A stretch of DNA of 64,000 nt from Emcibacter sp. (GTDB lineage Bacteria > Pseudomonadota > Alphaproteobacteria > Sphingomonadales > Emcibacteraceae). Within the stretch, counting starts at the first letter, position 1; every line of letters begins with the position of its first letter. Of the stretch, positions 11,180-30,163 are shown piece after piece. The DNA is taken from contig JAJFIQ010000006.1 of assembly GCA_021774785.1 (NCBI GenBank), positions 124,001 to 188,000 of the forward strand. Direction: 5' to 3'. The position numbers and the translations under genes are program-made. The notes beneath the pieces were generated by a model. That model was not told the origin of the DNA, ran no database searches, and was given only the letters and a program-made list of their open reading frames with translations.

Positions 11180-11192
11180 GCGTTCCTCTTTT

Positions 11193-12425: not shown

Positions 12426-12426
12426 A

Positions 12427-14115
12427 TCAATACTCACGCGTAATACGGCGCACTTCTTCGATGGTGGTTAGCCCCCGAAGTGACTTATCTATACCGTCTT
12501 CAAACATGGTGAGCATACCCGTCTCAAGAGCTGCCGCCTGAATATCAACGGTCGAAGCCTTTTGCAGAATAAGCTGACGGATATTTTCATCCACCACCAG
12601 AATTTCATAGATTCCCAACCGACCCACATACCCCTGCCCACCGCAAGCCTTGCAGCCAACAGGTCGGTAAAGACGGATATTCTGACAATCTTCAATATGT
12701 TTATCGAGCCCCATCCGTTTGATGAAAGCCATAGGTGGGCTATATTCTTCGCGACATTCGGCGCATAATGTTCGAACAAGCCGTTGCCCAACAACGCCAT
12801 TAACAGTGGAGGTCAGCAGATAATCCTCAACGCCCATATCCAACAGACGGGTGATGGCTCCGGCGGCATCATTGGTGTGAAGTGTCGACAGCACCACATG
12901 ACCGGTCAGTGAGGATTGTACGGCAATTTCCGCTGTTTCCAGATCACGCATTTCCCCGATCATAATAACGTCTGGGTCCTGCCGTACGATAGAGCGCAAT
13001 ACATTGGAAAAAGACAATCCTATATTGGCATTAACCTGCACCTGTGTAATTCCGTTCAATTGATATTCAATTGGGTCTTCCACAGTAATAATCTTGCGTT
13101 CCGTCTTATTAAGGAGCTTAAGGGCCGTATAGAGTGTCGTGGTTTTTCCGCTGCCTGTGGGTCCAGTTACCAGTAATATGCCGTGACGTTGGTTCAAAAC
13201 ATTCATAAAACGATCATGAAGTGCCTTGCCCATGCCAAGGCTTTCAAATTCAAGCCTGACGGCACTGTCTTCCAATATACGAATAACCGCACTTTCACCA
13301 TAAAGGCTTGGCAGTATGGAAACCCGCAAATCAATAGGTTTCCCCTGAATTTGAAGACTAACGCGGCCATCCTGAGTTAAGCGACGTTCTGCAATATTCA
13401 GATTTGCCATAATCTTGATACGGGAAATAATAGCCGGTGTCAGTTCCACGGGCGGCGAATCAACTTCCCGCAATACCCCATCAACACGGTAGCGGATGAT
13501 CAACTGATTTTCATAGGGCTCTATGTGAATATCCGATGCCCGTTCTTCCAAGGCGGTACCGATGATCCGGTTAACCAGACGGATCACGGGGGCCTCGCTG
13601 GCCATATCCTTGAGTTTTTTAATATCATCATCACTCACATCGCCAAAATCGTCGGCAATATCTTTTAAAATACTACTCAGTGAGCCTTCATTTTCCTCAT
13701 AAGCCCGTTCAAATGCGCGCTCAATATCGCGGGGCAAACCAATTTTTACCCGAACGCTTTTTCCCAGCGCATGTTCCAATGCCTCAACAGTAAAACTATC
13801 GGATGGGTCAGCCATGGCAACCACCACATGATCTTCTTCATCGGAAAGCGGCATTACCCGCGAAGATTTCAGAAAATTCCCTGACAGAGTGCCATTAAAT
13901 AAAGGATGGTCCGGATATTCATCGCTTTCGGCTTCGGGCAGATTAAATACCTTGGAAAGCACTTTGGCCAAGTCCTGTTCTGTTACCAGTTCCAGCTTAA
14001 CAAGTATCTCGCCAAGGGGTTGATCAAGCTCTTCCGTCGCAGCCTGCGCACGCTCACAACCTTCCTGATCAAGAAGGCCCATTTCCATTAGGGTTTCGCT
14101 GATTAAATTTGTCAA
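12427..14115 (-). CDS. gspE: T2SS assembly ATPase GspE
   Basis: 562 residues. N-terminal MshEN-type domain (about 1-150), then the ATPase core: Walker A GPTGSGKTTTLY, Asp box ITVEDPIEYQL, Walker B RQDPDVIMIGEMRD and His box TLHTNDA. The four-cysteine zinc motif CxxC...CxxC (CAEC, CKAC) is intact. It powers pseudopilus extension from the cytoplasm. The start is uncertain: TTG at 14115 begins MTNLISETLMEMG, while an ATG at 14088 lacks an SD. First gene of the minus-strand T2SS operon. Confidence 0.94.
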   Translation of the reverse strand: MTNLISETLMEMGLLDQEGCERAQAATEELDQPLGEILVKLELVTEQDLAKVLSKVFNLPEAESDEYPDHPLFNGTLSGNFLKSSRVMPLSDEEDHVVVAMADPSDSFTVEALEHALGKSVRVKIGLPRDIERAFERAYEENEGSLSSILKDIADDFGDVSDDDIKKLKDMASEAPVIRLVNRIIGTALEERASDIHIEPYENQLIIRYRVDGVLREVDSPPVELTPAIISRIKIMANLNIAERRLTQDGRVSLQIQGKPIDLRVSILPSLYGESAVIRILEDSAVRLEFESLGMGKALHDRFMNVLNQRHGILLVTGPTGSGKTTTLYTALKLLNKTERKIITVEDPIEYQLNGITQVQVNANIGLSFSNVLRSIVRQDPDVIMIGEMRDLETAEIAVQSSLTGHVVLSTLHTNDAAGAITRLLDMGVEDYLLTSTVNGVVGQRLVRTLCAECREEYSPPMAFIKRMGLDKHIEDCQNIRLYRPVGCKACGGQGYVGRLGIYEILVVDENIRQLILQKASTVDIQAAALETGMLTMFEDGIDKSLRGLTTIEEVRRITREY

Positions 14116-14309
14116 TATTCTACTTTTTGCCTCATTGATACTGATAGTGCATCATATATCAATGGTATTATATTTAAGAAATCTTCACAACTATCTATAA
14201 AATATTATTCACAAAGGTATATATGACCATTTCCGTGTACACTTGACCAAATAGACCTATATCCTGCATAATGCGACTTGGGAAACATGCTTTAAGAGGA
14301 GATTATATC

Positions 14310-15152
14310 ATGGGTTTTCTACGATTACCCGGCATTTGTGCGGCTGTGATATGCACAACCTTCTTGCTACATGGCTGCCAAACTACCGGCGGGGGAAAGG
14401 TCACCACACCGTCAGCCCAAAACCCTTCAGCGGATGCCTCAGAAAAGGCATCCTCTCTGACGGAACTAACAAATACAGACACGGAACAATTGCATAAAAT
14501 CATCAAAGATTACATTCTTGCCAATCCAAATATTATAAACCAAGCCCTTCAAATTTCCCGCATTCGTCAACAGGCACGCTCCCTGCAATCCACGGCAGAA
14601 TTAATAAAAACCCGACATAAAGATCTCTATAATGATGAAATCTCCCTGTCTAATGATGTTGAAGATGCTGATGTGACGATTGTCGAATTTTTCGACTATC
14701 GCTGCGGATTTTGCAAAAAAGCGCATCCTGTCATTAAAGCCCTGCTCGCGTCAGATCCGAAAATCAAATTTATTTATAAAGAATATCCCATCCTCGGCCC
14801 GGTATCCAAAATGGCAACACGGGTTGCCATCGCGGCCCACAAACAGGGAAAATATCTAGAATTTCATAATAAAGTTTTCACTACAGCCGGAAGTTTGACC
14901 GAAAAACGTATGATGCAGGATGCAGAATCCGTAGGGCTTGATATTAATCTGCTAAAACAAGATATGTTAAATAAAGAAATAGAAGACCTTGTCCGTCGAA
15001 ATAAGGCCCTTGCCAAAGGGCTTAATATATCCGGCACGCCAACTTTCATTGTTGGAACGCAGGTCATTCAGGGATTTGTCAATCTTGACAAAATGAAACA
15101 GGCCGTTGCAACGGCAAGAGAAATAGAAAAAAATGTCGCGAAAAAGAACTGA
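14310..15152 (+). CDS. DsbA-family thiol-disulfide lipoprotein
   Basis: 280 residues. The ATG at 14310 has the SD AGAGGAG and gives a lipoprotein signal (CAAVICTTFLLHGC). A helical segment with ANPNIINQALQ is followed by a thioredoxin/DsbA domain: FFDYRCGFCKKAHP has the CxxC active site (CGFC), and SGTPTFIVG carries the cis-Pro. Overall it resembles DsbA/ScsC- or Com1-like oxidoreductases, acting in the periplasm and lipid-anchored. Its last 20 bp overlap modA, so it is probably co-transcribed with modABC. Whether it serves the molybdate system or oxidises T2SS and exported proteins cannot be told from sequence. Confidence 0.88.
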   Translation: MGFLRLPGICAAVICTTFLLHGCQTTGGGKVTTPSAQNPSADASEKASSLTELTNTDTEQLHKIIKDYILANPNIINQALQISRIRQQARSLQSTAELIKTRHKDLYNDEISLSNDVEDADVTIVEFFDYRCGFCKKAHPVIKALLASDPKIKFIYKEYPILGPVSKMATRVAIAAHKQGKYLEFHNKVFTTAGSLTEKRMMQDAESVGLDINLLKQDMLNKEIEDLVRRNKALAKGLNISGTPTFIVGTQVIQGFVNLDKMKQAVATAREIEKNVAKKN

Positions 15153-15936
15153 CTGCCTGAATGGTTTTTTTAGGAGGATGATTTTACTTGTCATTGCCTT
15201 CCCCGCACTACTGTTTGCCGATGACAGGCCCGTCCCGGAAACGCTTCACGTGGCCGTTGCCAGTAATTTCACTTTTCCCCTGAAACAAATCGCCAAACGC
15301 TTTCAGAAAGAAACCGGTATAGCGGTAATTACCAGCAGCGGCTCCACGGGCACATTATATGCACAGATTTCGAACGGCGCCCCCTTTGATGTATTTCTTT
15401 CGGCAGATTCAAAACGGCCCATGCTTTTGGTTGAGAATGGATTCGCTGTTAAAAGCAGCCTTACAACCTATGCCTATGGCCAGATTATTCTCTGGGGAAA
15501 TGATCACCAGCTGGTGCCTGAAAATAATTCCGATGAATGTCTGACCAAACTAAAACAGGCCGGTCGTTTGGCTATCGCAAATCCACTGACAGCCCCGTAT
15601 GGCACGGCTGCTAAGGAAAGCCTTCAAAAAATGGGCCTATGGAAAAAAATAAAACCCCGTATCGTCTATGGCAATAACATTGTCCATACATTTCAATTTG
15701 TCGACACAGGAAATGTTGATTTTGGTATTGTCGCCTTATCGGAATATCTTCGATTAGGCAAACAGCGTGCAGGCTGCATATGGAAAATTCCCGATGAATA
15801 TCATAGCCCCCTTGAACAACAGGCCGTCATTCTCAAAAGAGCAGAAAAAAATGCCAATACGGTTAAATTTATGGCTTTTCTGACTGATCGGATGACTCGC
15901 AAATCCCTTGAATATCTTGGATATGGAAACCATTAA
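15133..15936 (+). CDS. modA: Molybdate ABC transporter substrate-binding protein ModA
   Basis: 267 residues. Signal sequence (RRMILLVIAFPALLFA) and a family II periplasmic binding fold: LHVAVASNFTFPLKQIAKRF, TSSGSTGTLYAQI and GAPFDVFLSAD are hallmark ModA segments, and NADP-type insertions are absent. It captures molybdate or tungstate in the periplasm. ATG 15133 overlaps the DsbA gene; an internal ATG at 15178 sits directly on AGGAGG, too close to be ideal. Confidence 0.93.
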   Translation: MSRKRTDCLNGFFRRMILLVIAFPALLFADDRPVPETLHVAVASNFTFPLKQIAKRFQKETGIAVITSSGSTGTLYAQISNGAPFDVFLSADSKRPMLLVENGFAVKSSLTTYAYGQIILWGNDHQLVPENNSDECLTKLKQAGRLAIANPLTAPYGTAAKESLQKMGLWKKIKPRIVYGNNIVHTFQFVDTGNVDFGIVALSEYLRLGKQRAGCIWKIPDEYHSPLEQQAVILKRAEKNANTVKFMAFLTDRMTRKSLEYLGYGNH

Positions 15937-16619
15937 TGCATGACTTCTCCATACCGGGACTGACGCCCCTTATCCTGAGCTTCAAGCTGGCAGGCGTAAC
16001 AACTTTACTTCTGATCATTTTAGCCACACCACTGGCCTGGTGGTTGTCTCAGACCAAAAACAGTTTCAAACCTGTATTTGAAGCCGTCGTGGCCCTACCA
16101 CTGGTACTGCCGCCAACAGTGATCGGTTTTTATATGCTGATCCTGCTTGGCCCGGAAGGATTCATCGGCAGAAGCTGGATCGGAATGGGGGGGGATACAT
16201 TAACTTTTTCCTTCACCGGCCTTGTTATCGCGTCCATGGTCTATTCGTTACCCTTCGTGGTGCAACCCATACAAAATTCCTTTGAGGGATTAGGCCGACA
16301 TACTCTGGAATCCGCATGGACACTTGGCTCACGCCCGTTAGATGCTTTTTTCAGTGTGGTTCTACCCCTATCGGCCAAAGGGTATTTGACGGCTCTTGTC
16401 TTAGGCTTTGCCCATACTTTGGGAGAATTCGGAATTGTCCTCATGGTGGGCGGTAATATTCCGGGAAAAACCAGGGTTATCTCCATTGCCATATACGACC
16501 ATGTGGAAATGCTCGATTACAGCTACGCCCACAAATTATCCGCCGGCTTACTGATTTTTTCACTGGTATTACTGATTGGCGTATATCTGATTAACCATCG
16601 ATGGCGGATCAGAACATGA
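15936..16619 (+). CDS. modB: Molybdate ABC transporter permease ModB
   Basis: 227 residues, about five to six transmembrane helices. Contains the family motif PLVLPPTVIGFYMLILLG and the EAA coupling loop (ESAWTLGSRPLDAFFSVVLP), then GFAHTLGEFGIVLMVGGNIPGKT, characteristic of molybdate permeases. Its ATG overlaps the modA stop codon (TAATG). Confidence 0.95.
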   Translation: MHDFSIPGLTPLILSFKLAGVTTLLLIILATPLAWWLSQTKNSFKPVFEAVVALPLVLPPTVIGFYMLILLGPEGFIGRSWIGMGGDTLTFSFTGLVIASMVYSLPFVVQPIQNSFEGLGRHTLESAWTLGSRPLDAFFSVVLPLSAKGYLTALVLGFAHTLGEFGIVLMVGGNIPGKTRVISIAIYDHVEMLDYSYAHKLSAGLLIFSLVLLIGVYLINHRWRIRT

Positions 16620-17659
16620 GCACATTAGACGTCACCATAAAATTTAATTATCCCGGCTTTGACCTTGATGTCTGTTTTCCCTTGCCAACAAGGGGTATAT
16701 CAGGACTTTTCGGCCCATCTGGATCGGGAAAAACCACACTTATTCGTTGTCTGGCCGGACTGGAAAGACCAACCCATGCACATATACGGGTGGGTAACAG
16801 CGTGTGGCAATCGGAAGAAGTTTTCCTGCCCCCTCATAAAAGGCGACTGGGAATGGTTTTTCAGGATGTGCGGCTGTTTAATCATCTAAACGTAGAGGGG
16901 AACCTGCTGTTTGGTTATAAACGAACAGCACCGGAAGATCGTAAAATAAAAATTGATGATGTGATTGCGGTTTTAGAATTAAAAACGCTACTGAATAAAC
17001 GCCCTGAAAAACTTTCCGGCGGAGAGGCCCAGAGGGTCGCCATTGGTCGCGCATTGCTGACAAGTCCTTCTCTGTTGCTGATGGATGAGCCGCTCGCCGC
17101 ACTGGGGGAACAACATAAAAAGGATATTCTGCCCTATCTAAAGAAACTGCCGCAGAAATTTGGCATCCCCGTTCTGTATGTGAGCCATGATTTTGAAGAA
17201 ATGGCCTCCCTTACCCAATATATGATTTGCATGGATCAGGGTAAAATACGGGCTAAAGGAAATTTGCTGGATGTGGCCTCTGAACTGCCCCATGTCATGA
17301 ACCGATGGGCCCCGGATAATTATATCGACGGCGAAATAATCAGTTCGGATCAATTCAAACTACCCGATGGGCAGATAATACAGATACCCCCCTCGTCCTC
17401 ACCCGTAAGACTTGTTATCAATGCCCGCGATATAAGCCTGTTACACAGCCCTCCAGAGCATTATGCGGGGGATGCTCTCCTTAAGGGGCGGATCACAGAA
17501 ATTGTCAAAATCAGCGACAGAAAGAATATTGTCAGCCTTTCCCTTGCAGAGCAGGAAATTCACGCAATCCTTGGGGACCGTGGGGGTAATGAACCCTGGA
17601 TAAGTCCAGGTAATGATGTTTTTATGGTGGTCAACAGAATAAAACTGGAAACAGGTTAA
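16616..17659 (+). CDS. modC: Molybdate ABC transporter ATP-binding protein ModC
   Basis: 347 residues from the ATG at 16616, which overlaps the modB stop (ATGA). An ATG at 16601 would add five residues. Walker A GPSGSGKTT, Q-loop MVFQDVRLF, signature LSGGEAQRVAIGRALL, Walker B LLLMDEPLAAL and a switch His in YVSHDFEE. A C-terminal TOBE/mop-like domain (about 270-345) is usual for ModC. Confidence 0.95.
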   Translation: MSTLDVTIKFNYPGFDLDVCFPLPTRGISGLFGPSGSGKTTLIRCLAGLERPTHAHIRVGNSVWQSEEVFLPPHKRRLGMVFQDVRLFNHLNVEGNLLFGYKRTAPEDRKIKIDDVIAVLELKTLLNKRPEKLSGGEAQRVAIGRALLTSPSLLLMDEPLAALGEQHKKDILPYLKKLPQKFGIPVLYVSHDFEEMASLTQYMICMDQGKIRAKGNLLDVASELPHVMNRWAPDNYIDGEIISSDQFKLPDGQIIQIPPSSSPVRLVINARDISLLHSPPEHYAGDALLKGRITEIVKISDRKNIVSLSLAEQEIHAILGDRGGNEPWISPGNDVFMVVNRIKLETG

Positions 17660-17673
17660 AGGAGCCGCAGATC

Positions 17674-18165
17674 ATGTTTCGTATTTTTTCACGATTTATC
17701 ATTTTCATGGTCGTGCTTGCCCTCTCCTCTTTCTCTGCCTATGCTCAGGAAAGAGGCCATGGGAAAGGAAAAGGGATAGGAAAGGGGAAAAATCGTTCCG
17801 GCAAAGCCTGTATTAATAAATTCGATCCCAGACTGACTTTCATATTTAATGAACAGGAACACTGGACTCTCACCCCCGATGAGGTGCTGGAACTTCCCGG
17901 TAATTTTGAGATTGCCAAAGGGTCTGATAATAAGCGTAAAGCCATAAAATTAATGGCCCTACTGCCCGCTGAATGGTCCGGGGGCCGAGTGAGTTTCTAT
18001 AGTTGTAATGGCCAGCGCATCAATGTTCCCGGCCCTCATCTGGAAACACAAAAAGGCCGCTATATTATTAGTAAAAACCGAAAAGGTTTTTTGAAACTTT
18101 CCATCAAAAAAGAAGATGCCGAGAGGGTTATTATGCGCGATATACGCCGAATCGATGTCAGGTAG
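17674..18165 (+). CDS. Small secreted protein of unknown function downstream of modC
   Basis: 163 residues with an SD AAAGGAG. Signal peptide (MVVLALSSFSAYA), a Gly/Lys-rich stretch (GHGKGKGIGKGKN), then a compact domain with LTPDEVLELPGNF and SFYSCNGQRINVPG. The LTPDEVLELP and later spacing faintly recall the N-terminal part of SUOX-fold molybdopterin-binding proteins, but I cannot assign it. It follows modC by 14 bp, so it is likely in the mod operon. Its 3' end overlaps the convergent gspJ by 8 bp. Confidence 0.7.
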   Translation: MFRIFSRFIIFMVVLALSSFSAYAQERGHGKGKGIGKGKNRSGKACINKFDPRLTFIFNEQEHWTLTPDEVLELPGNFEIAKGSDNKRKAIKLMALLPAEWSGGRVSFYSCNGQRINVPGPHLETQKGRYIISKNRKGFLKLSIKKEDAERVIMRDIRRIDVR

Positions 18166-18871
18166 CAGATCTTTCACCAATACGACACAAGCTGGCCGGC
18201 GGTATTTCCGGCGCAAGACAAGTTCCGTCCATATTAACCCTGACCGGGACAATTAAATCAGGCCAGTTTTTCTTTTCGTCCCCTGAAAATCTAAATTTGA
18301 TCAGCGTTGGAAAACTCTCCACCGTCTGCCAACTTGATGACCAGACATTTTCCTGCCCACTGTTTGCCGCACCGTAATATTCAAATGCCGCCCCCGGCAT
18401 GAGTTGATCAATCAGCAAGGTTCTGCTTTCTGGTTTGAAATTATCCTTGAAATCTTCCTGACCATTATAAGGCTGCCGGTACAGCACGAGTTGATTTCTG
18501 CTTTCACCATCTTCTGTACGGATATTTTCAATGGCAAACTCCACCAGATACAAACCGCCGCGCGTGGGATAGGGCGGCATGAAAGCCGCAAATCTGACCC
18601 GTGAACTGCTACCGGAAAAAACATATTCATTTTCACCCGTAATATCACTTACCATGGGGTACATACGGCTCATCCAGTCACCGGAGATCCGATAGAATGC
18701 CTGCATGTCGGAAAGGCTGTCCGTTTCTTCTATACTACGCTCCCAGGCACGATTACCAAAACGTAGACCACTGAATAATACGACCATAAGGACGCCCATA
18801 ATGCTTAAAACCACCAATAATTCAATGAGTGTAAATCCAGACTGTTTTTGCGGCAATAAAACTGAATTCAT
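18158..18871 (-). CDS. gspJ: T2SS minor pseudopilin GspJ
   Basis: 237 residues. Prepilin signal QKQSG/FTLIELLVVLSIMGVLMVVLF, followed by the GspJ-type region GLRFGNRAWE and a beta-rich body with SSRVRFAAFMPPYPTRGGLYLVEF. It forms the tip complex with GspI and GspK. ATGA overlap with gspI. Last gene of the gspHIJ block. Confidence 0.88.
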   Translation of the reverse strand: MNSVLLPQKQSGFTLIELLVVLSIMGVLMVVLFSGLRFGNRAWERSIEETDSLSDMQAFYRISGDWMSRMYPMVSDITGENEYVFSGSSSRVRFAAFMPPYPTRGGLYLVEFAIENIRTEDGESRNQLVLYRQPYNGQEDFKDNFKPESRTLLIDQLMPGAAFEYYGAANSGQENVWSSSWQTVESFPTLIKFRFSGDEKKNWPDLIVPVRVNMDGTCLAPEIPPASLCRIGERSAT

Positions 18872-19287
18872 TGCGGTTCTCCCGTACTATAGCGAAGGCT
18901 ATTGAGCATCACATCACGTGTCCGAAGGCCCGACTGCCAACTGACCCTGACCGATATATCAAATAACTCGCCCAGTGGGACAACCACATCCACATCCACA
19001 TCCCCCATTTCCGGTTCATAGAGTTTAATTTCAATTTTCCATTCATAACCCTGATCTGTCCTGCCCTGTTGAATTCCTTCCCGTAAAGGAAGGTTGACGT
19101 CCAGATCATTCATCAGTGCCTCAGCCTGTAGCATGGCCCTGAAGTTGTCTCCCCCACTATTGACCTTGCGCAAGCCACCAGAAAAAATTTCCAAAATCAG
19201 GCCGAGTGAAATTGCCATGATTGTCAAGGCGACAAGCACCTCAATCAGGGAAAAACCTCTTGCTTGCTTAATTCTGTGTTTTTTCAT
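18868..19287 (-). CDS. gspI: T2SS minor pseudopilin GspI
   Basis: 139 residues. Prepilin signal QARG/FSLIEVLVALTIMAISLGLILE, a match to the GspI family, then a short beta domain ending in RDVMLNSLRYSTGEPQ. Starts within the 3' end of gspH (20 bp overlap) and overlaps gspJ by ATGA. Confidence 0.88.
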   Translation of the reverse strand: MKKHRIKQARGFSLIEVLVALTIMAISLGLILEIFSGGLRKVNSGGDNFRAMLQAEALMNDLDVNLPLREGIQQGRTDQGYEWKIEIKLYEPEMGDVDVDVVVPLGELFDISVRVSWQSGLRTRDVMLNSLRYSTGEPQ

Positions 19288-19750
19288 GATCCATCACTAT
19301 TTTGCCCGTAAGCCAGTTCACATCAATGCGGTAATTGTTCTGTCCCCGGCTTATCCGAACATATCCGCCGGTGGAAGAGCCGTCGGGGAAAAAACGAATG
19401 GCGGCGGTGTTATTTTCACCCTGTTCCGCTTTTGCCGTATAAATTTCCACTTCTACCCCCTCGGGAAGTGTCCGCGCGTTACCGAAATTTTCTGTCCAGA
19501 ATTCGCCATTTGTCATATTTAGAAAGAACCGCACATCTCGTCCCGTCCTGATTGCCTGTGTACGGCTTTCAATTACCTGAATCATCACATCGCGGGCGGA
19601 AACCTTAAGGTCAAGGGTGTCCTTGCTACCGGGTAATGACACCAAGACTACCGTGCTCATCAGTCCGATTATGGCCAGCACTATCAGAAGTTCCAACAGC
19701 GTAAAACCATCCGCAGACCGACTTTTTTGGCTGTAGTTCCTAAAACCCAC
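19268..19750 (-). CDS. gspH: T2SS minor pseudopilin GspH
   Basis: 160 residues. Prepilin signal SADG/FTLLELLIVLAIIGLM, then the GspH body (LKVSARDVMIQVIESRTQAI, FFPDGSSTGG, the latter typical of GspH). GTG start at 19750 with SD AAGGA nine bases upstream. Transcribed divergently from the ECF-like gene. Confidence 0.9.
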   Translation of the reverse strand: MGFRNYSQKSRSADGFTLLELLIVLAIIGLMSTVVLVSLPGSKDTLDLKVSARDVMIQVIESRTQAIRTGRDVRFFLNMTNGEFWTENFGNARTLPEGVEVEIYTAKAEQGENNTAAIRFFPDGSSTGGYVRISRGQNNYRIDVNWLTGKIVMDHEKTQN

Positions 19751-19876
19751 CTATTTTATTCCTTTATTCCAGTCCAGAAAACCACCATAGCAAATTTTCC
19801 TCAATTATACAGAAAACTATTAGAAATTTGGCAAAGATATACACGTCATGTTACTCTATGGTTAGAGGAGCAAATA
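19751..19876. promoter_or_regulatory. Divergent intergenic region gspH / molybdenum storage operon
   Basis: 126 bp of AT-rich DNA between two divergent starts; it must hold both promoters. I see no well-matched -35/-10 pair or clear ModE-type palindrome. Confidence 0.4.
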
Positions 19877-21046
19877 TTGGCAGAATATTTTATAAAACCG
19901 GCTACCCGGTCTATATTAAAACTGGTTTATTTGATTTTAGCCCTGCAGCTGCTGGTTTTTCTGTCTGCGCCTTATGTCCTTATATCCATTGCTGTCCTTC
20001 AGGCAGGGCTATGGATGAATTCAAACCTGTCACTATCCGTCCTTCTGTCATCTTTCAAACGTCTATCTGTTTTTTTCGTAGTGATTTTCCTGTCCTATAC
20101 GGTGTTTAACGTTGGCGAAAACCCACATATTCTTGATCTGAGGTTTATAGAACTTAAGATCAATGAGGATGGCGCAGAAAAGGCTTTACTGATGTGTCTG
20201 CGGGTATTCCTCATGGTTTGGGCCAGTGTCTGGGTCCAAAAAAGTGAAAAGACCGGTGAAATGGCCACGGCCTTGCGAAAGATTGGCCTGTCCGAACTTC
20301 TCGCCACCGCCATTGACAGCACGCTATATCTCCTTACTGGCGATAACGGGAGAAAAAAAAATGGCTCCGGTAAAGGCAAGAAAAACAAGGTAAAAATTTC
20401 CTTCCGACAGATAATGCAGGGAGATTTTTCTTATGTGACAGACCGTTTCCTGGCCTCCCTTGAAAAGGCTACAAAATATCTGGGAGAGCGCTATCCCACT
20501 CTGGCCAAAGAACGTCTCAATGACCTAACTGTAGTGGTGGGCGTTTCTGCGGCCATTATGGGTCTCAAGCTAATCCAGTTAATGCCCGGCCTGCCGGTGG
20601 CACCGGGACATAAAAATATCATCATCATTCCCTTCTTTCTGGCGGCCGCAGCCATGACGCATTCCCGGTTTGGTGGCCTGATGACCGGCCTGACCGTTGG
20701 CATAGTCTCAGTCATGATGGGGTTTGGCAAATTCGGTATTTTTGAAATCAGCCATTTTGCCATTCCCGGCCTGCTCGCTGACCTTTTATTTCCTTTTATC
20801 GCGTTGAATGCTGCCCTATGGATCAGGTTTTTGCAGCTCAGCCTGATTGGTATGATTATGGGTTTTGGGCGCTTTAGTGCAAATTTCCTGGTGATCCTGC
20901 TCGCCGGTGCGCCGGAGGGGGCATTCATCCTTTATTTGCCCATGCTGTTTAGCCAAATAATATTTGGTGGCTTGAGTGTTTTTGTAAGTTTGGTTATTCT
21001 GAAAATAATAATTATAAAAAATAATAGTGAGAAGGATCAAATATGA
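19877..21046 (+). CDS. ECF-transporter-like membrane protein, T-component fused to S-like domain, linked to molybdenum storage
   Basis: 389 residues from TTG 19877, which has the SD AGAGGAG six bases upstream. A longer TTG form from 19727 would overlap gspH and has no SD. The N-terminal half has several transmembrane helices and a cytoplasmic segment TGEMATALRKIGLSELLA, resembling the coupling helix of EcfT/CbiQ T-components. A basic linker (KKNGSGKGKKNKVK) follows. The C-terminal half has about five helices with PGHKNIIIIPFFL and THSRFGG, resembling a substrate-binding S-type module. It overlaps mosA by ATGA, so a link with the Mo storage protein is likely. No ECF ATPase gene is in the window. 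Confidence 0.68.
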   Translation: MAEYFIKPATRSILKLVYLILALQLLVFLSAPYVLISIAVLQAGLWMNSNLSLSVLLSSFKRLSVFFVVIFLSYTVFNVGENPHILDLRFIELKINEDGAEKALLMCLRVFLMVWASVWVQKSEKTGEMATALRKIGLSELLATAIDSTLYLLTGDNGRKKNGSGKGKKNKVKISFRQIMQGDFSYVTDRFLASLEKATKYLGERYPTLAKERLNDLTVVVGVSAAIMGLKLIQLMPGLPVAPGHKNIIIIPFFLAAAAMTHSRFGGLMTGLTVGIVSVMMGFGKFGIFEISHFAIPGLLADLLFPFIALNAALWIRFLQLSLIGMIMGFGRFSANFLVILLAGAPEGAFILYLPMLFSQIIFGGLSVFVSLVILKIIIIKNNSEKDQI

Positions 21047-21900
21047 GCACGAGTGATACAAAGGGGCGTATTCACGTAAAAAGTGACCTTATGCGTGAAT
21101 CTCTTGTCAGCAGTGCCTTTAATGCCTCCACAGAAAAAGGCAAAATCCGCCGCATGGCTCCGGATGTGCATTTTATTGCCGTTGGTGGACAAAGCATTAT
21201 GGACCGTGGGTCAGAAGCCCTGTTCCCGCTTGTTGATGAGATTGTTCGCTTAAAAGAGAAATACAAGATTGTACTAGGTGTCGGGGGCGGTGCCAGAGTT
21301 CGCCATACCTATGCCATAGGTCGTGATCTGGGCCTGCCGGTTGGTGGCCTTGCACGTATTATGGGGGGGGTTGAGGAACAGAACCGCGACATGCTTCAAT
21401 TTCTGCTCGCCCCCCATGGCGGCATAACTTTTGTCAAAGATCATTTTCAGGATTTGCCCATGTTTCTGAATGGTGGACTAATTCCGGTCTGTATCGGACA
21501 ACCGCCCTACCATATTTGGGAACCACCCCCCGAAAAAGGGTTCCTGCCGGAGAATGGATCGGATGTGGGACTGTTCCTAATGGCGGAACTGATGGGAGCC
21601 GCAAGCATGACTTATATAAAGGATGTGGACGGCATTTTTACCGATGATCCCTATAAAAATTCTGATGCTGAATTCATCCCCGAATTGACGGTGGAAGACA
21701 TGAAGGCACGCAATCTTCCCGACAGCCCCTTTGAAGCGGAATTGCTGAACTGCCTTGAAACATCCCGTCTGGTAAGGGAAGTGCGACTGATCAACGGTTT
21801 AGAACCCGGACAACTGGCAAAGGCACTTGCCGGGGAAGATGTTGGTAGCCGGCTGAAGGGCAGCCGATCAAGAGAACTTGGGGAAGAAAATAATGAGTAA
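21043..21900 (+). CDS. mosA: Molybdenum storage protein subunit alpha-like
   Basis: 285 residues, amino-acid-kinase fold of the MoSto family, related to UMP kinase. IAVGGQSIMDRG, VLGVGGGARVRHTYAIG, PPYHIW and MTYIKDVDGIFTDDP match the MosA/MosB pattern. The heterohexamer stores polyoxomolybdate clusters in its cavity using ATP. PPYH aligns best with the Azotobacter alpha subunit. SD GAGAAGGA; ATGA overlap with the ECF-like gene; an 8-bp overlap with mosB. The alpha/beta assignment is from memory of the Azotobacter proteins. Confidence 0.88.
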   Translation: MSTSDTKGRIHVKSDLMRESLVSSAFNASTEKGKIRRMAPDVHFIAVGGQSIMDRGSEALFPLVDEIVRLKEKYKIVLGVGGGARVRHTYAIGRDLGLPVGGLARIMGGVEEQNRDMLQFLLAPHGGITFVKDHFQDLPMFLNGGLIPVCIGQPPYHIWEPPPEKGFLPENGSDVGLFLMAELMGAASMTYIKDVDGIFTDDPYKNSDAEFIPELTVEDMKARNLPDSPFEAELLNCLETSRLVREVRLINGLEPGQLAKALAGEDVGSRLKGSRSRELGEENNE

Positions 21901-22726
21901 GAAAAAAATAGAAAAAATTTCAACCTCTGGTCTGGAAAACCCCTTTTCCGGCATGACAAATAATTCCATGCTGTCCGGCGAAGAACAGTATGACCAGACG
22001 ACGGTAAAAATTCTGCCGGATGTATGGATTCTGAAAATTGGCGGCCAAAGTATCATGGATCGGGGCCGTAAAGCAGTCTATCCGATTATTGAGGAATTAT
22101 TGCAGGCGAAAAAGCAAGGCATAAAATTCATTCTGGGTGTTGGTGGTGGGACACGGGCGCGCCATGCCTATGCCATGGGGCTTGATATCGGATTGCCTAC
22201 TGGCGCACTGGCAAAAATTGGTGCCTCTATCCCGATCCAGAATGGTCGCATGCTGCAAATGCTCATGGCCCATGAGGGAGCGATCATGGCCTATCATGAT
22301 GATTTTGAAAAACTGCCCCTGTATCTGAATACCGGCTGCCTGCCGATCATGTCAGGTATGCCGCCCTTTGAATTTTGGGAGAAGTCGCCCATGGTGGGGC
22401 GTATGCCACAAAACCGTACCGATGCCGGGGTTTATCTGCTGTCTGAATTTTTTGGTGCCAAAGGCATGATTTACATTAAGGATGAAGATGGCCTTTATAC
22501 AGCTGACCCGAAAAAAGACCCCACCGCCACGCTGCTCGAAAATGCCAATGCCAAGGACCTTCTGGCAAGTGGGCAGGATGACTTCATTGTCGAACGTGTG
22601 GTACTGGAATATATGCAGCGCGCTCACCATACCCATGAAATCAAGATTGTTAATGGTATGAAAAAAGGCCAACTGCTCTCAGCCCTGCAAGGGAAAGACG
22701 TGGGCACCGTAATCCGGGCGAAATAG
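21893..22726 (+). CDS. mosB: Molybdenum storage protein subunit beta-like
   Basis: 277 residues from ATG 21893, overlapping the mosA stop. An in-frame TTG 15 bp upstream is less likely. LKIGGQSIMDRGRKAVYPII, VGGGTRARHAYAMGLDIGLP, RTDAGVYLLSEFFG and YIKDEDGLYTADPK closely follow the beta subunit of molybdenum/tungsten storage proteins. Partner of mosA. The C-terminus GKDVGTVIRAK is the usual end of the family. Convergent with gspO, with 7 bp between them. Confidence 0.9.
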   Translation: MSKKKIEKISTSGLENPFSGMTNNSMLSGEEQYDQTTVKILPDVWILKIGGQSIMDRGRKAVYPIIEELLQAKKQGIKFILGVGGGTRARHAYAMGLDIGLPTGALAKIGASIPIQNGRMLQMLMAHEGAIMAYHDDFEKLPLYLNTGCLPIMSGMPPFEFWEKSPMVGRMPQNRTDAGVYLLSEFFGAKGMIYIKDEDGLYTADPKKDPTATLLENANAKDLLASGQDDFIVERVVLEYMQRAHHTHEIKIVNGMKKGQLLSALQGKDVGTVIRAK

Positions 22727-22733
22727 ATAACCG

Positions 22734-23480
22734 TCAGAACAAGGAAAGTGGCCCGTATAGCCATGTCAGCCACAGCCCTATCGACAGATAACTGCCGAAG
22801 GGGACTTTCTGGAATCGATCCGGTTTTTTGTTCTGAAAGACGGCAAGTATAAAAGTTACCAATAGGGCAAGCAAGGTGGATGCGAGCAATAGTGTGCCAA
22901 GCCCCTCAAGACCGACCCACGCCCCTGCAGCGGCGAACAGTTTCACATCACCCTGCCCCAACCCTTCAATATGACGGACACGCTTATAGATATAGATCAG
23001 GGCACTAAACAGGGCCAAAGCCACCACGATTCCCGTCATATGTATAACCAGTTTATCTGGGTTTAAAAAGGCTATAACCCCCATACCACTGACCATCAAA
23101 GGCAGTGTTATGATGTCAGGCAAAATAAAATTCCTCCAGTCAATAACGGCAAGCACAAGCAACACCCATCCCAACAGACAGCTAATCACAAAAACCACAC
23201 CCGTTGTCACAAGGGAAGCCCATAAAACAACAATCAGGGCCGCGATTTCCATCAGGGGATAAAACGCTGGAATTTTTTTAGTACAATAAGCACATTTACC
23301 CCGGAATAGGACATAAGAAATCAGTGGTATCATATGCCAGAATGCGAGAACATGCCCACATTCAGGACATTTTGAACGCCCGAACATGAAGCTCTCGCCT
23401 TTTGGTAATCTTAAGACTACCACGCCCAGAAAACTGCCGACAAAGGGTGAGGTCAGAATTAATAGTAACAAATCATCCAT
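22734..23480 (-). CDS. gspO: Prepilin peptidase GspO/PilD (A24 aspartyl protease and N-methyltransferase)
   Basis: 248 residues, about seven to eight transmembrane helices. The N-terminal domain has the zinc-type cysteine pairs CPEC and CAYC. Catalytic aspartates lie in AVIDWRNFILPDII and GLGQGDVKLFAAAGAW. It cleaves and methylates GspG-K, all encoded in this window. The second half is separated from the other T2SS genes by the Mo storage operon. It starts 4 bp after the AraC-type gene and may be co-transcribed with it. Confidence 0.95.
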   Translation of the reverse strand: MDDLLLLILTSPFVGSFLGVVVLRLPKGESFMFGRSKCPECGHVLAFWHMIPLISYVLFRGKCAYCTKKIPAFYPLMEIAALIVVLWASLVTTGVVFVISCLLGWVLLVLAVIDWRNFILPDIITLPLMVSGMGVIAFLNPDKLVIHMTGIVVALALFSALIYIYKRVRHIEGLGQGDVKLFAAAGAWVGLEGLGTLLLASTLLALLVTFILAVFQNKKPDRFQKVPFGSYLSIGLWLTWLYGPLSLF

Positions 23481-24387: not shown

Positions 24388-24553
24388 TATTTCAATGAAT
24401 GGAACGAGAATATCAATAAATTAACACAAATCGGTAAAAAGTCCAAGTAAATCTCCAGATCATGCCTTAAATTAGCGTTCTATACGCGTAAAAATATAAC
24501 TTATCAGTTCTAGTACTTTATCATAAATGACAAGAATTGAGAGGAATATTTAT
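24388..24553. promoter_or_regulatory. Divergent regulatory region AraC gene / hcrC
   Basis: 166 bp, AT-rich. It carries the hcr promoter and presumably the AraC sites. No strong direct repeat is visible by eye. SD GAGAGGA at 24538-24544 precedes the hcrC ATG. Confidence 0.4.
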
Positions 24554-25045
24554 ATGGCCAATAATTCAAAAACAATTCTTAAGCTAACCGTCAATGGTGA
24601 GGCCCGCGAAGATCTTGTACCACCGAATATATTGTTGATCGATTATTTGCGTGAAGTGGTAACGATCACGGGCACCAAATCCGGTTGTGATGGTGGCGAA
24701 TGCGGGGCCTGCACCATATTGATCAATGGCAATCCTACACTCTCCTGCATCTCTCTGGCCGTGAGTCAGTCCGGCAAAAATATTGAAACCATTGAATCCC
24801 TCGCCACCAATGGGCGCCTGTCTATATTACAGCAGATGTTCCACGAAAAGCTCGGTACACAATGCGGTTTTTGCACACCGGGCATGATTATGGCATCTGA
24901 GGCCCTGTTGAGAAAAAACGACAATCCTACTGATGATGAAATTACCAAAGCATTGGAAGGTAACCTCTGCCGCTGTACCGGCTACGTCAAAATTCTTGAA
25001 TCCGTAAAAGCCGTGATCGGTGATAATGCGAGGGTCAGGGTATGA
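24554..25045 (+). CDS. hcrC: 4-hydroxybenzoyl-CoA reductase gamma subunit, [2Fe-2S]
   Basis: 163 residues from ATG 24554 (SD GAGAGGA). Plant-type [2Fe-2S] motif [14 protein letters not shown]...SC at about 48-70, and the second cluster domain with [10 protein letters not shown] and [10 protein letters not shown]. This is the small subunit of the xanthine dehydrogenase family. ATGA overlap with hcrA. Assignment to 4-HBCR rather than another Mo-hydroxylase rests on the beta subunit insert and the adjoining benzoyl-CoA genes. Confidence 0.9.
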
Positions 25046-27375
25046 CCAAACTGAATTCAGAATTAAAACCCAATAAAGCTGTCGGTGACCGGCTTCCCTT
25101 AATTGATGGTATCGAAAAAGTATCCGGCAAAGCAGACTATACCGCCGACCTTGATCCCAGAGGAGCATTGGTTGGCCTGATCCTGCGCAGCCCCTATGCC
25201 CATGCAGACATCACCAAACTAGATATTTCAGAGGCTTTGGCCCTGCCGGGTGTGGCTGCTGTCATTACCGGTGACGACTGCTGTGCGCCATTCGGGATTT
25301 TGCCTATTTCCGAGAATGAATTCCCACTTGTTAAGGACAAGGTACGATACAGAGGCGACGCTGTTGCCGCCGTGGCCGCCGTAGACATGCGGACCGCCAA
25401 AAAAGCCCTTGACCTAATCAAACTGGAGGTAAATGAATTACCCGCCTATTTCACCGCAGAAGAGGCCATGGCGGCGAACGCCACCTTAATTCATGATGAT
25501 CGCACAGGAAATTTTGAGCGCAAAATATCCGATGAGTTCGGCAATGCAGAAAAAGGGTTCGCACAGGCCGATCTGGTGCGCGAAGAAAGCTATCACTGTA
25601 ACGAGGTCACCCACGCCCATATGGAGCCTCATGCAGCACTGGCTGAATATGATGTGGAGCGTGACCGCCTTACCCTTCAATCCGTAACACAGGTTCCCTA
25701 TTATGTGCATTTGATGCTGACCCAATGCATGAGCATGGATTCATCAAAAATTCGCGTGATCAAGCCTTTTGTCGGCGGTGGTTTTGGCGCACGGACAGAA
25801 ACCCTGAACTTTGAGATCATTGCCTGCCTTCTGGCGCGGGCAGCGGGGGCCAAGGTACGGATGAAACTGACAAGGGAAGAAACATTTCTTACCCATAGAG
25901 GAAGACAGGAGACGACCATCAAACTGAAGATGGGTCTGAGCAAAGCGGGTAAAATTCTTGCCTGTCACGCTACCGTCATACAGCGCGGTGGTGCGTACGG
26001 TGGCTATGGCACCATCACCTCTCTCTATTCGGGCGCGTTGCTCCATGCCATTTATGATATTCCCAACATCAAATATGATGGTTTTCGGGTTTACAGCAAT
26101 ACCCCCGCCTGTGGGGCCATGCGCGGTCACGGGACGGTTAATATCCGCTTTGCCTTTGAAAGCCTGCTGAATAGCATGGCAGAGGATATCGGTCTTGATG
26201 CTTTTGAAGTGCGGCGTGAAAATCTTCTACCCGACAAATTTGAAACTCTGAATGGCCTTAAGGCACTGTCTTACGGGCTGCCTGAATGTCTGGACTGGGT
26301 TGAAAAGGCAAGTGGCTGGAACAAGAAATACAAAAAACTACCTAAAAATAAAGGCATAGGTATCGGCTGTTCACATTTTGTCAGCGGGGCCGGGAAAACC
26401 GTACATTGGACCGGTGAACCTGCGGCAACTATCATCATAAAGCTGGACTTTGATGGTGGTATTACCGTCTTTACCGGAGCTGCTGATATTGGGCAGGGAT
26501 CATCCACTATCGTCACCCAACTGGTGGCAGAAGTGCTGGGCTGTGATTACGGACGCATTCGGGTGATTGCCAACGACAGCGCCATCACGCCAAAAGATAA
26601 TGGCTCCTATTCATCACGGGTCACCGTCATGGTCGGCAATGCGACCGTGGATGCTGCAAATAAATTAAAAGACATCCTGCTGGAAGCTGCCGCTGGTAAA
26701 TTTCAATGCGCCGTGGCAGATGTGGAATGTCTGGGTGAGGCGTACCAGATGAAAGACCGGCCGGATACGGCACTGCCATTCCAGAATATTCTGGATGTGG
26801 CCCTGATTGGTTCTGGCACAATAAGCGTCAAAGGAACATATTTTGTACCGCGTGAGTATCAGGGTACGGGCAAACACCGGGGGGCGGCCGTGGGCTCATC
26901 CCCCGGATATTCATACGGTGTCAGTGCAGCAGAAGTCACTGTGGACGAAGATACCGGCATGATCACTGTGGATAATATCTGGGTTGCCCATGATTGTGGC
27001 CGGGCCATTAACCCGCTCTCCGTTGAGGGACAGATACAGGGTGGAGTCTGGATGGGCATGGCACAGGCCCTAAGCGAAGAAACTCGCTATCATGATGGTT
27101 TACATCTGAACCCTAACTTCATTGATTACCGTTTTCCGACCATCGTGGAATCACCCCATATTGAGATTAAAATCATAGAACCGGGGGATGCCAATGGTCC
27201 TTACGGCGCCAAGGAGGCCAGTGAGGGTGCATTATCGAGTATAGTTGCGGCCATCGCATCGGCAGTGAAAGATGCCACGGGAGTTGAAATAACCGAAACC
27301 CCTATCACCCCCGACCGGCTTTTGGATGCCATGGACAAGCAAGCCCGCAAATTACACAAGCAGGGGAAAAGATAA
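25042..27375 (+). CDS. hcrA: 4-hydroxybenzoyl-CoA reductase alpha subunit (molybdopterin)
   Basis: 777 residues, molybdenum-cofactor subunit of the xanthine dehydrogenase family. N-terminal hammerhead domain (about 15-120), [10 protein letters not shown] loop, [21 protein letters not shown] and [11 protein letters not shown] near the C-terminus, with the conserved Glu. It removes the 4-hydroxyl reductively, giving benzoyl-CoA. No export signal, so cytoplasmic. Stop and hcrB start overlap (TAATG). Confidence 0.9.
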
Positions 27376-28361
27376 TGGAATTTCTCCCGGATTTTGACGT
27401 AAAACGCCCCTTGACCATTGTTGAAGCCGTTGCCATGGCAGCAATGAAAAATACTTGCTTTCTGGCGGGTGGCACCGACCTGATGCCAAACCTTCGGCGC
27501 GGCGTCGGTAACCCAAAAACCCTCGTTGACCTGTCTGCTATCGCTGAAATGACAGAAATCAACGAAACGGATTCTGGCCTGTGCATTGGCGGCGGCGTTA
27601 CCCTTCAACAACTCATCGCAAATCCCCAGATACAGCGTGACTTTAATGTGGTGATGGAGGCAGCGGAAACCATTGCCGGAACCACGCACCGCTATACGGC
27701 GACGGTCGGGGGTAATTTATGCCTTGATACCCGTTGCCAATATTACAATCAAAGCGAATGGTGGCGCAGTGCCAATGATTACTGCCTGAAACACAAAGGT
27801 AATATTTGCCATGTGGCCCCAAAAGGCAATATCTGTCGCGCGGCATTCAGTGGTGATCTGGCTCCGGCAATGCTGATTCACGAGGCTCAGGTGGAATTAA
27901 TCAGTACGGAAGGGCGCCGTGTCGTCAATCTGGATGATATGTATCAGGAAGATGGTGCCAACAGTCTGACCCTGAAACAGGGGGAACTTCTGGCATCCGT
28001 AACTCTTTCGAAACTGGATGGCTATCAAACGGCCTATAAGAAAATGCGGGTGCGCGGTGGTGTTGACTTTCCTCTGGCGGGCGTCGCCATGGCTGTGCGG
28101 GGCAGTGAAGATAATCTTGAAGATATGCGCATCGCCTTAACCGGAACCAATTCCCGCCCCATCAGGCTGGAGGGAACGGATGCGTTAAAGGGAAAACCCT
28201 TAGATGAAGCAGGATTGAAAGCCTTGGGGAAACTCGTGTTCGCACAGGTCATGCCCATGCGCAGCACCTTTACACCCGCCGCATATCGCCGGAAGGTGGC
28301 AATTAATATGGTCCGGAGGCTGGCTCTGAACTTATTATGCCAAGCCTATTCCAAGCGTTAA
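27375..28361 (+). CDS. hcrB: 4-hydroxybenzoyl-CoA reductase beta subunit (FAD, extra [4Fe-4S])
   Basis: 328 residues. FAD-binding motifs FLAGGTDLMPNLRRGV and TATVGGNLCLDTRC. Unlike ordinary XDH medium subunits there is an insert of about 40 residues (about 115-155) with Cys residues in NLCLDTRC, YCLK, GNICH and GNICRA. That matches the extra [4Fe-4S] cluster loop of HcrB, which lets the enzyme run in the reductive direction with ferredoxin. This is the best evidence that the operon encodes 4-HBCR. Confidence 0.9.
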   Translation: MEFLPDFDVKRPLTIVEAVAMAAMKNTCFLAGGTDLMPNLRRGVGNPKTLVDLSAIAEMTEINETDSGLCIGGGVTLQQLIANPQIQRDFNVVMEAAETIAGTTHRYTATVGGNLCLDTRCQYYNQSEWWRSANDYCLKHKGNICHVAPKGNICRAAFSGDLAPAMLIHEAQVELISTEGRRVVNLDDMYQEDGANSLTLKQGELLASVTLSKLDGYQTAYKKMRVRGGVDFPLAGVAMAVRGSEDNLEDMRIALTGTNSRPIRLEGTDALKGKPLDEAGLKALGKLVFAQVMPMRSTFTPAAYRRKVAINMVRRLALNLLCQAYSKR

Positions 28362-28365
28362 AATA

Positions 28366-28456
28366 ATTTAACATGCATAATAATTCATATTACGGATTAT
28401 TTTAAAGCCTATTTCCATTGACATAGATCAATTATGCATTATTATGCATGTTAAAT
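28366..28456. promoter_or_regulatory. Long dyad operator upstream of boxC (probable BoxR site)
   Basis: Two 26-bp arms (28366-28391 and 28431-28456) are inverted copies with 24 of 26 matches and 39 bp between. The right arm holds TGCA-N6-TGCA (28435-28448), the left arm TGCA-N6-TTCA (28374-28387). TGCA-N6-TGCA is, to my knowledge, the box described for BzdR/BoxR-type regulators. The right arm covers the -10 of the boxC promoter, fitting repression relieved by benzoyl-CoA. Confidence 0.75.
28418..28445 (+). promoter_or_regulatory. boxC promoter, sigma-70 type
   Basis: TTGACA at 28418-28423, 16-bp spacer, TATTAT at 28440-28445. The start codon follows about 40 bp later. The -10 is embedded in the operator arm. 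Confidence 0.65.
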
Positions 28457-28485
28457 ACCCCCGCATGTTCTAACTAAAGGCGATC

Positions 28486-30147
28486 ATGGATATGATTGAT
28501 TTTCAGACCAAACCGGATAAATACAAACATTGGAAACTTGCCTTTGATGGCCCGGTGGCAACGCTGAGCATGGATGTTGATCCTGACATTACTTTACAAG
28601 ATGGCTACGCGTTAAAACTGAATTCCTACGATCTGGGTGTTGATATTGAGCTTTATGATGCGGTCCAACGCTTGCGGTTTGAACATCCCGAGATTAAGAC
28701 AGTGATCATGACATCAGCCAAGGAAAAAGTATTTTGTGCCGGGGCCAATATTAAAATGCTCGGTGGGGCAACACATACCCACAAGGTAAATTTTTGTAAA
28801 TTTACCAATGAAACCCGTAACGCCATAGAAGATGCCAGCGAATTTTCCGCGCAGCGTTATCTATGTGCCATCCGTGGCACAGCAGCAGGTGGTGGTTATG
28901 AACTGGCTTTAGCGGCGGATTATATCATGATGGCTGACGATGGCAATTCTGCCGTATCTCTGCCCGAAGTTCCTTTGCTGGCGGTATTGCCCGGCACGGG
29001 GGGTCTGACACGTATTGTTGATAAGCGTAAAGTACGCCGTGACCTGGCTGATGTATTCTGCACAATAGAAGAAGGTGTGCGCGGGAAACGGGCCGTTGAC
29101 TGGCGTCTGGTAGATGAAGTCGTGCCGGGATCAAAATTTGATAGTGCCGTGCGGGAAAAGGCACTCGAAATGACCGAAACATCCGACCGTCCTTCTGATG
29201 CACAGGGTATCGCGTTGCCGCCGCTTATGAAAAACATACAGCAAAACAACATCACCTACCAATGTGTCAGCGTAGATATTGACCGTGCCAGCCGCGTTGT
29301 CACCGTAACAATACGTGCGCCAGAAATAGACATCCCTGCCGGGATCACGGTTGAAGAAGCCGTAACCAAAGGTGCCGAATTCTGGCCCCTTGCCGTTTGC
29401 CGCGAGCTTGATGATGCCATATTGCATTTGCGGCTGAACGAATTGGAAACAGGAATCCTGATTTTTAAAACCGAAGGCGACAGTGATGTTGTTGAGGCCT
29501 ATGACGGCTTTATCAGCAGGAATCAAAACAACTGGCTGATGCGTGAAATTGCCCTCTATTGGCGACGCACATTGAAACGTATTGACCTGACATCCCGCAC
29601 CACCCTTGCCCTTATTGAGCCGGGAAGCTGTTTTGTCGGAGTGCTGGCGGAATTGCTGTTTTCAGTGGACCGCAGCTATATGCTGGAGGGGCAGTTTGAA
29701 AATGATGACCGTACGGCACCAACAATACAATTGACCGCCGTAAATTTTGGTTCTTACCTTATGTCCAACGGGATCACGCGTCTGGAAACCCGTTTTCTGG
29801 GTGAGCCGGAAACCGTCGATGACTGCAAGAAAGTTATGGGACAGAGCATTGATGCGGCGGCATGTGATAAATTGGGACTGGTGACTTATATCCTTGATGA
29901 TATTGACTGGGATGATGAAATCCGAATGGTAATCGAAGAACGGGCCAGTTTCTCACCAGATTGTCTGACCGGCATGGAAGCAAACCTCCGTTTTGCCGGT
30001 CCCGAAACCATGGAAACAAAAATTTTTGGTCGCCTAACCGCTTGGCAAAACTGGATATTTCAGCGGCCTAATGCTGTTGGTGAGAAAGGTGCGTTGTCCC
30101 TGTATGGCACAGGTGCGCGTCCTGAATATGACTTGAAACGTGTCTGA
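28486..30147 (+). CDS. boxC: 2,3-epoxybenzoyl-CoA dihydrolase (benzoyl-CoA-dihydrodiol lyase) BoxC
   Basis: 553 residues. Crotonase-type fold in the N-terminal half: KVFCAGANIKMLGGATHTHK and IRGTAAGGGYELALAADYI, oxyanion-hole segments. BoxC is about twice the length of enoyl-CoA hydratases, as here. It opens and cleaves the 2,3-epoxide of benzoyl-CoA hydrolytically, yielding 3,4-dehydroadipyl-CoA semialdehyde and formate. ATG 28486 with AAAGG upstream. First gene of boxC-B-R. Confidence 0.94.
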   Translation: MDMIDFQTKPDKYKHWKLAFDGPVATLSMDVDPDITLQDGYALKLNSYDLGVDIELYDAVQRLRFEHPEIKTVIMTSAKEKVFCAGANIKMLGGATHTHKVNFCKFTNETRNAIEDASEFSAQRYLCAIRGTAAGGGYELALAADYIMMADDGNSAVSLPEVPLLAVLPGTGGLTRIVDKRKVRRDLADVFCTIEEGVRGKRAVDWRLVDEVVPGSKFDSAVREKALEMTETSDRPSDAQGIALPPLMKNIQQNNITYQCVSVDIDRASRVVTVTIRAPEIDIPAGITVEEAVTKGAEFWPLAVCRELDDAILHLRLNELETGILIFKTEGDSDVVEAYDGFISRNQNNWLMREIALYWRRTLKRIDLTSRTTLALIEPGSCFVGVLAELLFSVDRSYMLEGQFENDDRTAPTIQLTAVNFGSYLMSNGITRLETRFLGEPETVDDCKKVMGQSIDAAACDKLGLVTYILDDIDWDDEIRMVIEERASFSPDCLTGMEANLRFAGPETMETKIFGRLTAWQNWIFQRPNAVGEKGALSLYGTGARPEYDLKRV

Positions 30148-30163
30148 TGAAATAGGAAATATA

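Follow-up and report, generated by a model that had tools for sequence, protein, structure and literature searches.

A candidate single-chain fusion of T-like and S-like transporter parts encoded beside molybdenum storage genes in Emcibacter

The window, a 64,000-nucleotide stretch of an Emcibacter sp. genome (GenBank assembly GCA_021774785.1, contig JAJFIQ010000006.1, positions 124,001 to 188,000), encodes a membrane protein in which a T-like part and an S-like part, both of the energy-coupling factor (ECF) transporter type, appear to be joined in one chain. Its gene lies directly upstream of two genes whose products, judged by sequence similarity, are relatives of the molybdenum storage protein (MoSto). 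The identification of this protein as a one-chain T-S fusion is well supported but not proven, and it is best evidenced by a full-length structural model, whose first half matches a T-type chain and whose second half matches an S-type chain. As to function, the preferred but tentative reading is that the fusion may be an ATPase-independent, S-type handler of molybdenum (Mo) coupled to trapping in MoSto.

Gene structure and the two halves of the protein

The frame at 19877-21046 is a real gene. It opens with a TTG codon at 19877, runs for 389 residues and stops at 21044-21046, and an AGAGGAG stretch just upstream of the start is ribosome-binding-like; an alternative, longer frame starts at 19727. 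Homologues were found in two further genomes, at loci referred to here as L002, where the protein has 83% identity to that of the window across the aligned region, and L003, where it has 44%. The TTG start is conserved in L002, as is the ATGA junction at which the stop of the fusion gene overlaps the start of the downstream mosA-like gene, while 288 bases separate the two frames, as listed, in L003. Comparison with the L002 homologue over 385 codons gave a nonsynonymous divergence (dN) of 0.105, a synonymous divergence (dS) of 1.316 and a ratio of 0.08, which is rough, with dS near saturation. A preliminary description of the locus had reported this 389-residue frame, the ATGA overlap and three motifs, and all of these are present, the motifs being TALRKIG (residues 131-137), PGHKN (residues 243-247) and THSRFGG (residues 261-267).

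A relationship of the first half to ECF T components (CbiQ/EcfT), also part of that description, is supported by profile comparisons and has been borne out. The Pfam CbiQ family (PF02361) matches residues 14-144 of the window protein at 25.6 bits against a gathering threshold of 25, and this low score is no fluke because the two homologues score 36.8 and 44.1 bits, placing all three family proteins above the cut-off. The cobalt CbiQ equivalog TIGR02454 matches the three fusions at 36.5 (window), 48.2 and 50.1 bits, all below its cut-off of 111.8; the first half is therefore best described as a T relative rather than as a cobalt CbiQ. Alignment of the N-half with 11 T components by hhalign was weak (19.7% probability, E 0.0012) and improved when six T components were used (56.5% probability, E 1.1e-4, 121 columns). 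The T assignment therefore rests mainly on Pfam. In the full-length AlphaFold model, residues 9-123 match chain 7nnu_D with a Z of 6.9 and a root-mean-square deviation (rmsd) of 5.0 over 111 aligned residues. PDB entry 7nnu contains an EcfT sequence for which 5d3m_D (265 residues) serves as the example chain, and from its chain letter and length (261 residues) we infer that 7nnu_D is the EcfT chain.

The second half is the most conserved part of the fusion. In the three-row alignment its blocks are 55-86% identical to the window, and the motifs MPGLPxAPGHKN, MMGFGKFG, HFxxPGLLADL and GRFxANFLVILLAGAP are common to all three fusions; conserved residues of this half include H245, K246, R264, K285, E290 and H293. 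Between the window and L002, the dN/dS ratio is 0.053 over the 175 codons of the S half and 0.106 over the 210 codons of the T half. An S-component fold for this half is supported by models but not proven. Modelled alone from three sequences, the C-half forms six helices with a mean predicted local distance difference test (pLDDT) score of 68.5, and among the 39 rows listed by VIA-align with Z of at least 5, ten are S-component entries. Seven of these are identified by title or protein name (FolT, three ThiT, and three that are RibU or unnamed S components), and the remaining three (6zg3_C, 4hzu_S and 4huq_S) are probably S components, going by chain letter or length. For six of the ten, the alignment spans the first four helices and takes in 87-97 residues at 3.0-3.8 angstrom. 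When the full-length model is used, the best match of residues 213-389 is FolT (4z7f_A), with a Z of 11.6, an rmsd of 3.3 and 154 residues aligned of the 163-residue chain. The small-xxx-Ala docking motif of S-component helix 1, which is not strict in that family (PMC5037267), reads AAIMG, AAIMG and SVAMA in the window, L002 and L003, so that small-xxx-small is found in all three and the terminal Ala in L003 only. In these models the C-half resembles known S components (FolT, ThiT, RibU and PanT) by its six helices and the FolT match; it differs from them in its attachment to a T-like half and in showing no detected sequence relation to them.

Several results weigh against this fold assignment and the transport reading built on it. 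The full-length model is of low confidence (mean pLDDT 47.9, with residues 1-188 under 50), none of the 50 rows listed for it apart from FolT is an S component, and the rows that follow FolT are particulate methane monooxygenase subunit B at Z 8.0-8.8; helical bundles can reach such Z values by chance. For the C-half modelled alone, the top VIA-align row is not an S component and the three longer S-component matches (126-143 residues) have rmsd values of 6.8-8.2. Foldseek against the PDB returned nothing significant for the C-half or the full-length model, TmRibU ranking third for the former at a non-significant E of 3.4. At the level of profiles, Pfam and NCBIfam gave no hits with E of 10 or less for the C-halves of the window and L003 proteins, hhalign found no relation between the C-half and five BioY and five CbiM proteins, and neither the whole protein nor either of its halves matched a PDB sequence at E up to 10. 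The separate S-type module that had been proposed for the second half is thus backed by the structure match, and none of the sequence searches tied that half to a family of S components.

The coupling region and the search for an ATPase

In T components, two cytoplasmic triplets with a central Arg contact the ATPases, as shown for BioN, where single Arg changes in these signatures are partly tolerated (PMC3246461). The coupling regions of 11 T components from 10 other genomes were aligned with those of the three fusions. At alignment columns 224 and 285, Arg is present in 11 of 11 T components, in contrast to N, D and K (window, L002 and L003, respectively) at the first column and P in all three at the second. 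The fusions also share a Lys/Gly-rich insert, with a net charge of +7 over the 35 residues following a TG pair in 3 of 3, and this linker is probably cytoplasmic. It appears that the fusion changed its normal docking to ECF ATPases. The TALRKIG motif, previously described as a coupling helix, does not hold as one: it precedes the coupling region, and the signature arginines lie further on in all 11 T components of the alignment. Because the insert makes the register of the alignment unsure, the Arg signature may have been shifted instead of lost, particularly in L003. Close to the signature positions, L003 still carries the triplets ARL and ART, and the window and L002 fusions carry ERY; ATPase docking may for this reason persist, which counts against a protein that works without an ATPase.

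ATPases and CbiQ-family proteins were searched in two of the three fusion genomes, the window's and that of L002, with L003 left out. Each encodes one CbiQ-family protein, the fusion itself, and no second was found. No match above cut-off was detected in either genome for ECF_ATPase_1 (TIGR04520; 0 of 2 versus 3 of 14 controls) or for cbiO (TIGR01166; 0 of 2 versus 2 of 14 controls), consistent with the earlier proposal of a mosAB linkage without an ECF ATPase. These curated cut-offs are strict and could miss a divergent ATPase, a further point against ATPase independence. The window's own genome holds 20 ABC (ATP-binding cassette) ATPase matches with E under 1e-20. Ten of these were scanned with NCBIfam and none lay above an ECF cut-off; four pass a named cut-off (UgpC, PstB, LptB and FtsE), and the remaining six have only sub-threshold matches, to exporter, LolD, YbbA, phospholipid or heme types. 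These ten were taken from the 19 matches other than ModC, and six of the other nine look exporter-type. The fusion would, on this evidence, have no ATPase partner in the cell. Relative to ECF T components (CbiQ, BioN and EcfT; PF02361), to which it is tied by the aligned residues and the model match given above, the fusion differs in its distance from the cobalt CbiQ equivalog, its changed signature Arg columns, its junction to an S-like module and the lack of an ECF ATPase above cut-off. As a separate observation, another genome of the class (L051, 1393-3573) carries an apparent ECF ATPase-ATPase-T component fusion in one frame.

An alternative explanation is that the fusion is an ATP-driven transporter, in which the T half recruits ModC or an ABC ATPase encoded elsewhere and a Mo species is taken up or exported via the S half. 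The Arg triplets, the 20 ABC ATPase matches and the location of modC near the fusion gene in all three genomes would each be compatible with this. It is nevertheless considered unlikely, given that ModC scores as an ordinary ModC, that both invariant Arg columns are non-Arg in all three fusions as aligned, and that ECF_ATPase_1 and cbiO gave no match above cut-off in both genomes searched.

Linkage and the neighbouring molybdenum genes

In 3 of 3 genomes the fusion gene stands directly before mosAB-like genes and near modABC, with the gene order rearranged in L003; only three fusion genomes are involved, two of them in one genus. Matches to the fusion, own genome included, were found in 1 of 289 genomes of the class, 1 of 299 of the phylum and 2 of 60 relatives (own genome and that of L002), and a profile search returned 2 of 385 class genomes, own included, the second being a weak partial match (E 0.002); the genome samples searched overlap. 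A scan of genome contigs gave 2 loci and, being pattern-based, can miss distant relatives. The fusion had no match in the plasmid collection at E 0.01 and none in viral contigs. MoSto genes occur in 10 records of the plasmid collection, all from Azospirillum. Four of these records were read, of which three carry a MoSto pair and one (L037), with an incomplete gene table, shows the alpha gene only. In this small sample, then, mosAB accompanies every fusion but is also found where there is no fusion: the linkage put forward in the preliminary description is seen in every fusion genome and is one-way, the 10 Azospirillum records carrying MoSto genes without a fusion match. MoSto itself is rare. 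With an E limit of 1e-15, a mosB-like query matched 1 of 398 genomes of the phylum. With an E limit of 0.001, a mosA-like query matched 48 of 385 genomes of the class, of which only the own genome was strong; the best other match had E 1.7e-7 with partial coverage, and the weak rows, not individually named, are taken as other amino-acid kinases.

The linkage bears on the possibility that the substrate is unrelated to Mo storage, for instance a pterin or a vitamin, and that adjacency to mosAB reflects operon history. The best structural match is FolT, the substrate is unreadable from sequence, and the narrow occurrence just described would also fit such an account. Yet the linkage has persisted although the L003 protein is only 44% identical and its genes are in another order, and each of the three genomes has the module together with modABC and mosAB-like genes; this explanation is regarded as improbable.

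Coordinates of the fusion, its parts and the neighbouring molybdenum genes in the window
Feature	Positions	Strand	Basis
Whole T-S fusion gene	19877..21046	+	389 aa; frame, homologue alignment, dN/dS
T-like half (residues 1-154), CbiQ/EcfT-related membrane part	19877..20338	+	PF02361, TIGR02454, model match 7nnu_D
Lys/Gly-rich linker and remodelled coupling region (residues 155-210)	20339..20506	+	Charge count, Arg-column alignment
S-like six-helix half (residues 211-389), most conserved part	20507..21043	+	Three-row alignment, model, FolT 4z7f_A match
MoSto-like subunit (mosA-like), ATGA overlap with fusion	21043..21900	+	phmmer A. vinelandii MoSto beta 212 bits, alpha 155 bits
MoSto-like subunit (mosB-like)	21893..22726	+	phmmer MoSto beta 222 bits, alpha 161 bits
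ModA, molybdate-binding protein	15133..15936	+	TIGR01256 195.5 bits, cut-off 62.5
ModB permease	15936..16619	+	TIGR02141 236.6 bits, cut-off 182.6
ModC ATPase	16601..17659	+	TIGR02142 322.8 bits, cut-off 285.05
Small protein, probably exported, beside modC in all three genomes	17674..18165	+	No family above cut-off

The two downstream frames overlap by 8 bases. Against MoSto of Azotobacter vinelandii, phmmer matched the beta chains at E 8.9e-62 (mosA-like) and 7.3e-65 (mosB-like), with alpha weaker; both window subunits thus match the subunits of that protein (MosA/MosB) at 155-222 bits, and depart from it in that both are nearer to beta. The Lys of the KIGG motif is kept in the mosB-like subunits of all three genomes and in the Azospirillum rows, is replaced by Ala in all three mosA-like subunits, and is Ser at the same position in PDB sequence 6ris_B. 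Because of this difference, ATP binding may be shared unequally between the two subunits. A tree of 12 rows groups the mosA-like and the mosB-like sequences in separate clades, apart from Azospirillum alpha; long branches meet in it, and its deep order is unsure. A further difference from A. vinelandii is that nifH was not found above cut-off in the two genomes searched (window and L002; 0 of 2 versus 3 of 14 controls). On this basis the window and L002 genomes probably do not fix nitrogen, and a nitrogenase link was rejected for these two genomes.

It is also possible, though doubtful, that the fusion is a membrane anchor or receptor without transport, in which a Mo species would be sensed by the S fold and MoSto would be held at the membrane, or have its loading and release controlled, by the protein. 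S folds occur in receptors (PMC11109136), and sensor proteins share the S-component fold. The overlap of the fusion and mosA genes in 2 of 3 genomes and the remodelled T docking region could be explained in this way, while the absence of any attached signalling domain and the small-xxx-small pattern readable in the first S helix of all three fusions, a pattern chosen after the fact, speak against it.

Other features of the surroundings are recorded here as observations. Copies of the small protein beside modC lie at 17674-18165 in the window, 5793-6278 in L002 and 5932-6591 in L003; behind the signal they carry a basic stretch of Gly and Lys, their C-terminal end is conserved, and the L003 copy starts like a twin-arginine signal. 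In 3 of 3 genomes modABC, the small protein, the fusion and the mosAB-like genes are interleaved with type II secretion genes (window 5102-23480, L002 431-11608, L003 318-11812), in the same order in two genomes and in a different one in L003; the secretion genes were assigned by Pfam in the window and by eye from open reading frame lists in L002 and L003. Downstream, at 24527-32489, lie a xanthine-oxidase-type molybdenum hydroxylase set and a regulator with helix-turn-helix and shikimate-kinase parts, and two genes in this interval are presumably benzoyl-CoA ring-opening enzymes. A tie of the fusion to the hydroxylase genes (24527-28361) was rejected, as L002 has other genes there. One Rfam match fell below its gathering score and is taken as chance.

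Proposed mechanism and its meaning

In the mechanism tentatively proposed for the fusion as an ATPase-independent handler of Mo, T-like and S-like parts derived from ECF transporters would have been joined in one chain via the Lys/Gly-rich linker. The S half would bind a Mo species and carry it over the inner membrane without ATP, as proposed for the solitary S-type proteins BtuM and BioY, and the remodelled T half would hold the S half and offer MoSto a landing site at the membrane. Energy would come from the cytoplasmic side, where the MoSto-like pair would pack arriving molybdate into stored clusters and so keep the gradient inward, a form of metabolic trapping. The MoSto-like pair belongs to the amino-acid-kinase family. 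The mechanism presupposes a Mo species as the substrate of the fusion, an inward direction of transport, contact of the fusion with MosAB and presumably the use of ATP by the MoSto of the window.

A precedent is offered by BtuM, an S-type protein from an organism without an ECF module that supports vitamin B12 uptake in Escherichia coli, itself lacking an ECF module, and for which facilitated diffusion with trapping by the product of the neighbouring btuR gene has been proposed; BioY is also able to act alone (PMC6072759). On this reading the fusion would resemble BtuM and solitary BioY as an S-type protein without an ECF module, and BtuM, too, adjoins the gene of its proposed trapping enzyme, btuR (PMC6072759). 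It differs from them in keeping a T-like half and in having a metal storage protein as its neighbour. Two properties of the neighbouring genes count against the proposal. ModABC, a classical importer with a periplasmic binding protein that is encoded near the fusion and complete by itself here, already supplies molybdate, the very role that the fusion would share with it, and the mosA-like subunit lacks the KIGG lysine. A bolder version, in which MoSto stands in for the ECF ATPases, with the MosAB oligomer docked on the T half and molybdate pulled through the S module by ATP-driven growth of polyoxomolybdate clusters inside MosAB, is thought unlikely; if true, it would describe a storage-coupled importer with the metal store as its motor.

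This fusion was not seen among the papers listed in the literature searches, in which subscription journals are thinly covered; it may already be in print, as S-T fusions could be mentioned in older ECF reviews. Nor did those papers show a membrane partner for MoSto. The tentative reading of the fusion as an ATPase-independent Mo handler points to a route, so far undescribed, by which molybdenum could enter or leave its store, and MoSto-like genes in genomes without nifH above cut-off suggest that such storage serves more than nitrogen fixation. As a single T-S chain in which ATPase docking is altered, the fusion would provide a natural test of how far ECF parts can work without a motor, and the substrates of the S fold could widen to include an oxyanion.

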